Shown piece after piece: positions 46,300-53,943 of a stretch of 64,000 bases of DNA (positions are counted from its first letter, which is position 1; every line of letters begins with the position of its first letter). The translations under genes were made by a program, and so were the position numbers. Source of the DNA: Streptacidiphilus pinicola (lineage in GTDB: Bacteria > Actinomycetota > Actinomycetes > Streptomycetales > Streptomycetaceae); assembly GCF_003258295.1 (NCBI RefSeq), contig NZ_QKYN01000065.1, positions 1 to 64,000 on the forward strand. The letters run 5' to 3'. The notes below the pieces were generated by a model that made no database searches, was not told the origin of the DNA, and was given only the letters and a program-made list of their open reading frames with translations.

Positions 46300-46926
46300 A
46301 TGGCAGGACGCCGTCGTGGATTCGGGGCGGACGACGACGCGCGCCCGAGCGCCATCAGCGAGACCGAGTTGATCGTCAGTCAGGACGCCTCCCCGGCACG
46401 GGTCGAGGTCCTGGAGTCGCGGTCGACGACGATCCGGCACAAGCGGGTCTACGCTGCCGGAACCTTCACCCTCCTCCTTGTCGCCGCCCTGGTGCTGTAC
46501 TTGACGCGCCCTCAGCCGCAGCCGCCGGTCCCGACCGCCTGGCCGGCCGAGAACGCCTCCGTCGGGTACGGGGGAACGCTGCCCGTCCACGACGACCCGA
46601 CAGGGCGCACCGCCGACTTCGTCGTCTCCGTGCGCAACCAGGACCGGGTGTCAATGACGGTGATTCAGATCACCTTCGCCTACCGGGGGTTGACACTGCG
46701 CACCGAGCCCCGGCTGCCACTGCCCGTGCAACCCGGGCAAACCGTGCGCATCCAGCTCATCGTGACCGCGGCGGACTGCTCGGGCATCCCCGAGAACGAC
46801 GCCCTTCCTTTCGTCGACATTACGTTCCGTAACATCCGCGCAATAGGACAGGAAAGCGAAATACTCGGTGACAGATACACCCTCGACCTGCACCGAGCCA
46901 TGACCGCCGCCTGCCGTCGAGGGTGA
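46300..46926 (+). CDS. Unknown single-pass membrane protein
   Basis: 208 residues. A hydrophilic, acidic N-terminal cytoplasmic part (about 48 residues), one TM helix around AAGTFTLLLVAALVLYL, and an extracytoplasmic beta-like domain with RTADFVVSVRNQDRVSMTV and two cysteines (CSGIPEN and the C-terminal AACRRG). I do not recognise the family; a beta-sandwich resembling small secreted or sensor domains is possible. It starts 60 bases after the thioesterase gene on the same strand, so it may be co-transcribed. Confidence 0.75.
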   Translation: MAGRRRGFGADDDARPSAISETELIVSQDASPARVEVLESRSTTIRHKRVYAAGTFTLLLVAALVLYLTRPQPQPPVPTAWPAENASVGYGGTLPVHDDPTGRTADFVVSVRNQDRVSMTVIQITFAYRGLTLRTEPRLPLPVQPGQTVRIQLIVTAADCSGIPENDALPFVDITFRNIRAIGQESEILGDRYTLDLHRAMTAACRRG

Positions 46927-46929
46927 AGT

Positions 46930-46946
46930 CTCAAATCTTCCTCAGC
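46930..46946 (+). repeat. 17-base sequence shared with the APC permease promoter (copy 1)
   Basis: CTCAAATCTTCCTCAGC, four bases after the stop of the unknown membrane protein and 150 bases before the liv operon start. An identical copy lies at 53799-53815. It contains the pentamers CTCAA and CTCAG spaced 11 bases apart. Confidence 0.85.
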
Positions 46947-47095
46947 TGATAACAACCCCATCACATAGACATCCAACCGCTCCCGGCCGAGCACAGGGGA
47001 GCCTTAAAGTCACGGCCAGTCACCGCGCCATGGGTAGACAGGTCGGGGCCTGCGCGCGGGTCGATCCCCTCAGGCCAGAGGAAGAAGGACTTCTC

Positions 47096-48328
47096 GTGCG
47101 AAACCGATCCCTGCTCGTGCTGACCGCCATCGCGGCCACCGGCACGCTCACCCTCACCGCCTGTGGCTCCCGCGCGTCGAACAGCGGCAGCAGTGGCGGC
47201 TCCGGATCCACCACGGTCACCATCGGCGTCGACGCCCCGCTCACCGGTTCGCTCTCGGCCCTCGGCATCGGCATCCAGAACTCCGTCGACCTCGCCGTCA
47301 AGACGGCGAACAAGACCAACGAGGTCCCCGGGGTCACCTTCAAGATCGAGGCCATGGACGACAAGGCCGCGCCGCAGCAGGGCAGCCTCAACGCCACCCA
47401 GCTCGTCGGCGACAGCAGCGTCCTCGGCGTGGTCGGCCCGCTGAACTCCGGCGTCGCGCTGACCATGCAGAAGACGTTCAACAACGCCAACCTGGTCGAG
47501 GTCTCCCCGGCCAACACCAACCCGGCGCTGACCCAGGGCCCGAACTGGCAGACCGGCACCAAGGCGCGCCCCTTCGCCTCGTACTTCCGCACCGCCACCA
47601 CGGACGCCATCCAGGGCCCGTTCGCGGCGCAGTTCGCGTACAGCACGCTGGGCAAGAAGAAGGTCTTCCTGGTCGACAACAAGGACGCCTACGGCGTCGG
47701 CCTGGTCGGCACCTTCAAGGACGAGTTCACCAAGCTCGGCGGCTCGGTCGCCGGCCAGGACCACGTCACCAGCGGCGCCAGCGACTTCTCCTCCACCGTC
47801 AACGCCATCAAGTCCTCGGGCGCCGACTTCGTCTACTTCGGTGGTGAGTACCCGGACGCCGCCCCGCTGACCAAGCAGCTCAAGGCGGGCGGCGACAACA
47901 TCCCGATGATCGGTGGCGACGGCAACTACGACCCGACCTACGTCAAGCTGGCCGGCACCGCCGCCAACGGCGACTACGCCACCTCCGTGGGCGCGCCGGT
48001 GGAGTCCCTGCCGTCCGCGCAGACCTTCGTGGCCAACTACAAGGCCGGCGGCTACTCCCAGGCCTACGGCGCCTACGGCGGCTACTCCTACGACAGCGCC
48101 TGGGCCATCATCGAGGCCGTCAAGGCGGTCGTCAGCGCCAACAGCGGCAAGCTGCCCAGCAACCCGCGCGCGGCCGTGGAGAAGGCCATGGGCAGCGTGA
48201 GCTTCTCCGGCGTGACCGGCACGGTCGCCTTCGACCAGTACGGCGACGCCACCAACAAGCAGCTGACCGTCTACGGCGTCAAGAACGGCCTCTGGGCCAC
48301 CATCAAGACCGGCACGTTCTCCGGCTGA
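47096..48328 (+). CDS. livK: Branched-chain amino-acid-type ABC transporter substrate-binding lipoprotein
   Basis: 410 residues from a GTG at 47096 with GAAGAAGGA upstream; the open frame starts earlier. Lipobox LTLTAC with Cys23, then a Gly/Ser-rich linker and a type I periplasmic-binding fold (TVTIGVDAPLTGSLSALGIG, DGNYDPTYVKLAG). It delivers a ligand to LivHM; the family covers branched-chain amino acids, other amino acids, amides and urea. A hairpin after the gene probably lets the binding protein be made in excess. Confidence 0.92.
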   Translation: MRNRSLLVLTAIAATGTLTLTACGSRASNSGSSGGSGSTTVTIGVDAPLTGSLSALGIGIQNSVDLAVKTANKTNEVPGVTFKIEAMDDKAAPQQGSLNATQLVGDSSVLGVVGPLNSGVALTMQKTFNNANLVEVSPANTNPALTQGPNWQTGTKARPFASYFRTATTDAIQGPFAAQFAYSTLGKKKVFLVDNKDAYGVGLVGTFKDEFTKLGGSVAGQDHVTSGASDFSSTVNAIKSSGADFVYFGGEYPDAAPLTKQLKAGGDNIPMIGGDGNYDPTYVKLAGTAANGDYATSVGAPVESLPSAQTFVANYKAGGYSQAYGAYGGYSYDSAWAIIEAVKAVVSANSGKLPSNPRAAVEKAMGSVSFSGVTGTVAFDQYGDATNKQLTVYGVKNGLWATIKTGTFSG

Positions 48329-52775: not shown

Positions 52776-53390
52776 TTACTTGCTGGCGCCCTCTTCGATG
52801 ACGGCCTCGGCGACGGCCTTCATGGTCATCCGGCGGTCCATCGAGGTCTTCTGGATCCAGCGGAACGCGGCAGGCTCGGACAGCCCGAACTTGGTCTGCA
52901 GCACGCTCTTGGCGCGGTCGACCAGCTTGCGGGTCTCCAGGCGCAGATTGAGGTCCTCGATCTCCAGCTCCAGCGCCCGCATCTCGCTGTAGCGGGAGAC
53001 GGCCATCTCGATCGCCGGGACCAAGTCGCCCTTGTTGAACGGCTTCACGATGTAGGCCATGGCCCCGGCGTCGCGCGCCCGCTCGACCAGCTCGCGCTGG
53101 GAGAAGGCGGTCAGCATCAGCGTCGGAGCGATGTGCTCCTGGTGGATCTGCTCGGCCGCCGAGAGCCCGTCCAGGACGGGCATCTTCACGTCCAGGATCA
53201 CCAGGTCGGGCTTGAGCTCCTGCGCCAGCTTGACGGCGGTCTCGCCGTCCCCGGCCTCGCCGACGACGGTGTAGCCCTCCTCCTCAAGCATCTCCTTGAG
53301 GTCGAGGCGGATCAGGGCCTCGTCCTCGGCGATGACGACGCGAGTGGTCGTCGGCGGGACGTGCGGATCCTGCTCGTCGGCGGCGGTCAC
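52776..53390 (-). CDS. pdtaR: ANTAR-domain response regulator (PdtaR-like)
   Basis: 204 residues. Receiver domain with RVVIAEDEALIR, phospho-acceptor Asp in LVILDVKMP (about residue 72), Thr in MLTAFSQ and Lys in VKPF. The C-terminal ANTAR RNA-binding domain runs from about 140, with RKLVDRAKSVLQTKFG, AAFRWIQKTSMDRR and KAVAEAVIEEG. Such proteins bind tandem stem-loops in nascent RNA and prevent termination; in mycobacteria PdtaR pairs with the kinase PdtaS, which is not in the window. GTG start with GAGGAG upstream. Confidence 0.92.
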   Translation of the reverse strand: MTAADEQDPHVPPTTTRVVIAEDEALIRLDLKEMLEEEGYTVVGEAGDGETAVKLAQELKPDLVILDVKMPVLDGLSAAEQIHQEHIAPTLMLTAFSQRELVERARDAGAMAYIVKPFNKGDLVPAIEMAVSRYSEMRALELEIEDLNLRLETRKLVDRAKSVLQTKFGLSEPAAFRWIQKTSMDRRMTMKAVAEAVIEEGASK

Positions 53391-53481: not shown

Positions 53482-53565
53482 GCCGGGTTGGTGGAACGGC
53501 ATACACGGATGTCTCAAACACATCTGCCGAAAGGCTTGCGGGTTCGAATCCCGCACCCGGCACCA
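53482..53565 (+). tRNA. tRNA-Leu (anticodon CAA)
   Basis: 84 bases including encoded CCA. Acceptor GCCGGGT/ACCCGGC, anticodon stem GATGT/ACATC with loop CTCAAAC (anticodon CAA, reads TTG), a long variable arm (TGCCGAAAGGCT) as in class II tRNAs, T arm GCGGGTTCGAATCCCGC, discriminator A. Followed by a terminator. Confidence 0.95.
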
Positions 53566-53590: not shown

Positions 53591-53943
53591 TTTCTCATAT
53601 GCTGAGACAGTACCGCTGAGCGGACGTCCAGACGTGAAAGCGACGGCGCCCCAGAGCGCCCCTTACCCCCTGCCACCAGGTCGTCTGCATGCCGCCATTC
53701 ACGCGGTCGAAGAATCCCATGCAGCAGGGTCGAAGACCTTGAGATTCTTAGGTCAACTCGCGTAGATCTCTGAATATTCTGTACCAGCCTGAGCCATGCT
53801 CAAATCTTCCTCAGCCACTTGAGCATTCTCTGAGCTGCTCTTACAGGCATCTATTCAGTAACGGTGTCTATGCATGGGATAAATATCGCCCTTACGGTTG
53901 GGCAACTCTCAAGCAACAGCTCCCCACCCTCGAGAGGCCTTGC
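53591..53943 (+). promoter_or_regulatory. Low-GC control region before the APC permease
   Basis: About 350 bases with clearly lower GC than the surroundings. It holds the second copy of the shared 17-mer (53799-53815) and pentamers of type CTCAR/YTGAG starting at 53789, 53799, 53810, 53819 and 53830, thus spaced 9-11 bases. ATGCTCAA (53796-53803) and TTGAGCAT (53819-53826) form an inverted repeat around the 17-mer. AT-rich GGATAAATATC lies near 53877. GAGAGG stands 8 bases before the ATG. No ORF is credible. Confidence 0.7.
53799..53815 (+). repeat. 17-base sequence shared with the liv promoter region (copy 2)
   Basis: CTCAAATCTTCCTCAGC, identical to 46930-46946. It is 128 bases upstream of the permease start and lies inside an array of similar pentamers. 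Confidence 0.85.

Follow-up and report, generated by a model that had tools for sequence, protein, structure and literature searches.

A conserved CTCAR direct repeat upstream of livK and an APC permease gene in Streptomycetaceae, a probable operator of the response regulator GluR

Response regulators of the OmpR/PhoB type dimerize side by side on direct repeats spaced 11 bp apart, and the PhoB/PhoP-type boxes are tandem half-sites at the same distance that are read by winged-helix regulators. The gluABCD genes are said, after work by Li in 2017, to be activated at high glutamate. In Streptomyces coelicolor, the OmpR-type regulator GluR is reported to bind a motif located upstream of gluA and to regulate gluABCD (PMC10345050); GluK senses glutamate, and the regulation of gluABCD by GluR takes place under high glutamate (PMC9739842, PMC10345050). 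The livK orthologue of Streptomyces venezuelae (Sven_1634/SCO2008) has been identified by ChIP as a target of GlnR, with the site ATAACAAGACAGTCAC (PMC3087709). Here we describe a direct repeat found in two amino acid transporter promoters of a stretch of 64,000 nucleotides from Streptacidiphilus pinicola (the window), which is part of contig 249 of an 8.43-Mb genome (G000).

The repeat in the livK and APC permease promoters

A first-pass annotation of this DNA had noted that the 17-mer CTCAAATCTTCCTCAGC is shared by the DNA upstream of livK and of an APC permease gene. Both exact copies were confirmed by a search of the window (46930-46946 and 53799-53815), and no third copy at up to two mismatches was found across the whole genome. 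With up to three mismatches allowed, 0.09 copies are expected in shuffled windows, and none of the shuffles contained two. The positions given for five pentamers on the APC side were likewise correct (CTGAG, CTCAA, CTCAG, TTGAG and CTGAG at 53789, 53799, 53810, 53819 and 53830, respectively), as was the statement that both sites lie in AT-richer surroundings, with GC contents of 51% and 60% vs. 71% for the window. With five pentamers in 46 bp, the APC site is the densest cluster of the window, and at most two are found anywhere else. Other single matches to CTCAAATCTTCCTCAGC at two to three mismatches were rejected, as they are mostly coding or not located before a common gene.

The element conserved among orthologous promoters is smaller than either the 17-mer or the array: it is a direct repeat, CTCAR-N6-CTCAR, whose period is exactly 11 bp and whose spacer varies. 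Distances between half-sites in the gluA, livK and APC promoter sets peak at 11 only, other spacings occurring at most five times each. The 11-bp box is present in 40 of 50 gluA promoters, in 41 of 65 livK promoters (a set that counts one genome twice) and in 39 of 85 promoters of APC orthologues, including those of Kitasatospora, Streptantibioticus and some Streptomyces, while 0.04, 0.13 and 0.26 occurrences, respectively, are expected from shuffled sequences. Among the APC boxes, 19 different spacers are found, the half-sites and the period being fixed. The tandem half-sites proposed initially are thus borne out, as an 11-bp direct repeat with a free spacer, but neither the whole 17-mer nor the five-pentamer array is the unit; of the four closest relatives, three lack the CTGAG at 53789, so what has been conserved is not the array of five.

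The box follows genes, rather than being scattered regardless of them. Orthologous livK and APC promoters retain it, and within 80 named APC loci of approximately 20 kb each, 45 matches fall in the 28 kb of APC upstream DNA (350 bp before the gene) vs. 6 in 1.63 Mb elsewhere, 5 of these 6 being livK promoters. Genome-wide enrichment did not appear, with 21 matches to CTCAR-N6-CTCAR in G000 vs. 21 for the reversed control. Since the loose pattern is not enriched, the significance of the box rests on its conservation. Half-sites repeated directly at a fixed period of 11 bp are the arrangement of OmpR/PhoB-family tandem operators, and the CTCAR half-sites do not match those of a GlnR box (gTnAc/GaAAc, n6).

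Table 1. Features of the two promoter regions, with positions in the window
Feature	Position	Strand	Remarks
GluR-type box at livK, CTCAA-ATCTTC-CTCAG	46930..46945	+	Conserved in livK promoters; directly past the stop codon of ORF 46300-46926
GlnR-type box, ATAAC-N6-ATCAC	46949..46964	+	3 bp downstream of the CTCAR box
Putative livK -10 element, TAAAGT	47005..47010	+	Predicted from sequence and conservation; TAGAGT in most relatives
Near-invariant leader AGTCACGGCCAGTCACCGCGCC	47008..47029	+	117/160 family genomes at up to 2 mismatches; at putative livK transcription start
livK, branched-chain amino acid ABC transporter binding protein	47096..48328	+	Peripla_BP_6; NCBIfam subfamily match below cut-off; first gene of the liv operon
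Extra CTGAG of the five-pentamer array	53789..53793	+	Present in G000 and G008, absent from G005, G007 and G010; not conserved
GluR-type box at APC, CTCAA-ATCTTC-CTCAG	53799..53814	+	Conserved upstream of APC orthologues
Second, inverted box, CTCAG-AGAATG-CTCAA (minus strand)	53819..53834	-	Yields CTCAR-11-CTCAR-9-YTGAG-11-YTGAG
APC-family amino acid permease, 544 aa	53944..55578	+	AA_permease_2, E=2.6e-47; predicted target gene

Conservation of the livK box depends on the lineage. All 10 Streptacidiphilus genomes keep it, as do 28 of 30 from a second genus of the family (g6), and it is found in just 1 of 20 Streptomyces-type genomes (g9/g14). The GlnR-type sequence ATAAC-N6-RTCAC, in contrast, is present in all 65 livK promoters examined, including the 20 of the Streptomyces type, and is a family-wide feature. 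The copy in the window is orthologous to the published S. venezuelae site. The gap that separates it from the CTCAR box is 3 bp in all 10 Streptacidiphilus genomes and 15 bp in the 28 g6 genomes, a shift of 12 bp relative to the GlnR box, or about one helical turn. Given that a sequence known in an orthologue as a GlnR ChIP site adjoins the CTCAR box, livK probably receives two inputs, from GlnR and from GluR.

At APC genes, the box is located approximately 150-300 bp upstream of the start codon, and two APC paralogues carry it as well (G003, C1:447839; G012, C4:5028804). The four-part element CTCAR-11-CTCAR-9-YTGAG-11-YTGAG was found in 5 of the 298 family genomes searched, all close Streptacidiphilus, and was discarded as a family-wide motif because it is confined to the five closest species. 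Relatives with the same locus are S. melanogenes, S. anmyonensis, S. neutrinimicus, S. jeojiense and S. carbonis. The best APC orthologue lacks the box in the gluR-bearing genomes G002, G009, G013, G015 and G017, and it is absent from all 13 APC orthologues of lineages without a detected close GluR relative (12 of f3, 1 of g7).

Several other observations were made around these promoters. The liv operon and the APC gene are separated by an ANTAR-domain response regulator gene (PdtaR-like; 52776-53390, minus strand) and a tRNA-Leu(CAA) gene (53482-53565, plus strand). At three loci (L104, L107 and L147), longer TCAAG arrays with mostly 11-bp spacing occur approximately 190-290 bp upstream of the APC gene and are perhaps degenerate or extended versions of the CTCAR operator. 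A triple tandem CTCAAATCTTGCTCAGGAAACTCTCAG with an 11-bp period precedes a secreted protein gene in one species only (L269 near 1772-1798, G010 contig 109). Finally, a conserved CTCAACTCCCSCTCAA is found in five Streptacidiphilus genomes (L250, L251, L252 and L253 near 1001; L184 near 1501) before a DUF5919-like gene (a weak match; membrane protein), which is a possible further target.

A third copy beside gluR and the candidate regulator

A search of eleven genomes brought to light a third conserved copy of the box, in the divergent promoter between gluR and gluA. Over 50 genomes, the intergenic region carries it in 40 of the 40 that have gluA beside gluR, and in none of the 10 in which an FAD monooxygenase gene replaces gluA. 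The gene next to the box codes for an OmpR-family response regulator (Response_reg and Trans_reg_C domains, as read in an orthologue) and is followed by a kinase gene with HAMP, HisKA and HATPase_c domains, while the divergent gene, gluA, codes for an ABC ATPase related to glutamine/glutamate transporters; recA is a few kilobases away. The locus matches gluR-gluK and gluA of S. coelicolor (SCO5774-5779), the regulator being the orthologue of SCO5778. In the genome of the window, the gluR orthologue is located at G000:C238:16679-17404, with the kinase gene adjoining. GluR has an almost invariant putative recognition helix (RtLEVHvxSLRxKL), and no gluR relatives outside the family were detected at E <= 1e-70 in the phylum sample. 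Second gluA-like transporter genes located elsewhere lack the box and were rejected as further targets.

The first-pass annotation had postulated a common regulator, unassigned, that binds tandem half-sites before both operons. Comparative evidence supports the common regulator, and the box in the gluR-gluA promoter makes it assignable, most probably to GluR. We consider it likely that the CTCAR box serves as operator for a dimeric response regulator of the OmpR/PhoB family, the foremost candidate being GluR of the GluK-GluR pair, because the box sits in the gluR-gluA promoter when gluA is there and GluR has been reported to bind upstream of gluA. Its conservation across related genera and its presence beside gluR indicate that GluR most likely controls the livK, APC and gluA promoters. 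Directly observed are the location of the box, its sequence and spacing, how far it is conserved and its association with the gluR-gluA locus; from these we infer binding of GluR to the livK and APC boxes. This assignment is strong in view of the 40/40 vs. 0/10 distribution, the boxless second gluA copies, the nearly invariant putative recognition helix and the 13 boxless APC orthologues.

Alternative readings and proposed mechanism

Many response regulators as well as SARPs have the OmpR-type DNA-binding fold, regulators of the OmpR type are numerous in streptomycetes, and SARPs use repeats 11 or 22 bp apart (PMC10936776), so another protein of either type might read the CTCAR repeats at livK, APC and gluA alike. 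This is rather unlikely, as the box tracks the gene beside gluR, is missing from second gluA-like copies elsewhere, and lies upstream of the gene where GluR itself was reported to bind (PMC10345050). It is very improbable that GlnR alone controls the promoters, the CTCAR box being part of a composite GlnR site. Such a site would be in line with the ATAAC-N6-RTCAC found beside the box region in every livK promoter and bound by GlnR in S. venezuelae (PMC3087709), but CTCAR is unlike gTnAc/GaAAc, the livK promoters of Streptomyces keep the GlnR-type box in 20 cases of 20 and CTCAR in one, and inspection by eye revealed no GlnR-type box adjoining those of APC and gluA.

Two further readings have a negligible probability. 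A chance repeat, or a recent duplication of a promoter fragment within the window, might be suspected from the identity of the two 17-mers and from the lack of genome-wide enrichment of the loose motif. However, identity ends at the 17-mer, and the spacers differ in the relatives, with the 11-bp period maintained through several genera, a conservation that refutes this idea. Control at the RNA level, by a hairpin or riboswitch formed from the inverted pentamers in the APC leader, is hardly more credible. CTCAG and TTGAG can pair in the four-part element, and the gene for the ANTAR-type RNA-binding regulator is close by (52776-53390), but most APC boxes are the direct repeat alone, which cannot form a hairpin, and the gluA and livK boxes lie upstream of the likely -35/-10 elements, in DNA that is probably not transcribed. 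Apart from the tRNA-Leu, Rfam gave no match, and none on the box.

If GluR is the regulator, two molecules would sit side by side on the two CTCAR half-sites, one helical turn (11 bp) apart. In Streptomyces-type gluA promoters, 5 bp separate the box from a downstream -35-like hexamer (CTGACG, ATGACG), with TANNNT approximately 18 bp further on, and the 5-bp distance would match a class II activator site in its geometry. At livK, where the box is further upstream and beside the GlnR box, GluR may act together with GlnR. At APC, GluR would act from a more distant box, or, in the closest Streptacidiphilus, from two boxes in inverted orientation. Phosphorylated GluR is thus predicted to bind the livK and APC boxes, most likely activating both, the direction being deduced, and to adjust the uptake of branched-chain and other amino acids, jointly with GlnR at livK.

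In G000, the usual LSGGQ signature has been lost from the gluA product (L290:5730-6491, contig 238), which reads LGPTQRGR, nor are gluBCD genes found behind gluA, an FAD monooxygenase gene being there instead; it resembles a transporter in decay whose operator is intact. Of 12 g6 genomes examined, 10 no longer have gluA at the gluR locus, and all 7 of those 10 that were searched have boxless gluA-like genes elsewhere, with 73-78% identity. The retention of gluR in such genomes would plausibly be explained if livK and APC were its remaining targets. As a tentative scenario, glutamate sensing might have been rewired in this lineage, with decay of the original GluR target, boxes kept at the APC permease and the Liv operon, and GluR and GlnR side by side; the APC permease may then have taken over glutamate or aspartate uptake.

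Two major amino acid uptake operons of Streptomycetaceae obtain a probable regulator and a precise operator, the reach of the glutamate two-component system would go past gluABCD and include APC transport and that of branched-chain amino acids, and livK is a probable meeting point of GluR and GlnR. The box is retained or lost along with its target gene, which makes it possible to test how a small regulon has evolved.

Relation to known regulatory systems

PhoB/PhoP-type boxes share with the CTCAR box the 11-bp-period direct repeat and the winged-helix regulator, but the half-site sequence of the Pho box is different; the closest relatives with solved structures include RegX3, MtrA and PrrA. 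GlnR boxes (gTnAc-n6-GaAAc) are also 11-bp direct repeats of 5-bp half-sites, and a GlnR-type box adjoins the livK copy, but their half-site sequence and their distribution among genomes differ from those of the CTCAR box. SARP boxes, such as the afs box of AfsR, are likewise two 11-bp direct repeats read by OmpR-type domains (PMC10936776). They overlap the -10/-35 spacer, however, whereas the CTCAR box of gluA precedes the -35-like hexamer and those of livK and APC are far upstream. In SARP boxes the 3' repeat lies approximately 8 bp from the -10 element, while at gluA CTGACG and approximately 18 bp separate the box from TANNNT.

The closest system is GluR-GluK/gluABCD of S. coelicolor, with the same orthologous gluR-gluK beside gluA, an OmpR-family regulator and a divergent promoter that carries the box. 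The kind of system is therefore known. Among the papers searched, which on GluR were reviews, none was found to print the GluR motif or a CTCAA direct repeat from Streptomyces, and relative to that literature the two operators and the proposed extended regulon are new. Two differences stand out: gluA of Streptacidiphilus has no gluBCD behind it and looks degenerate, and the box is also present at livK and the APC permease gene, which are not among the targets named in reviews (PMC9739842, PMC10345050).
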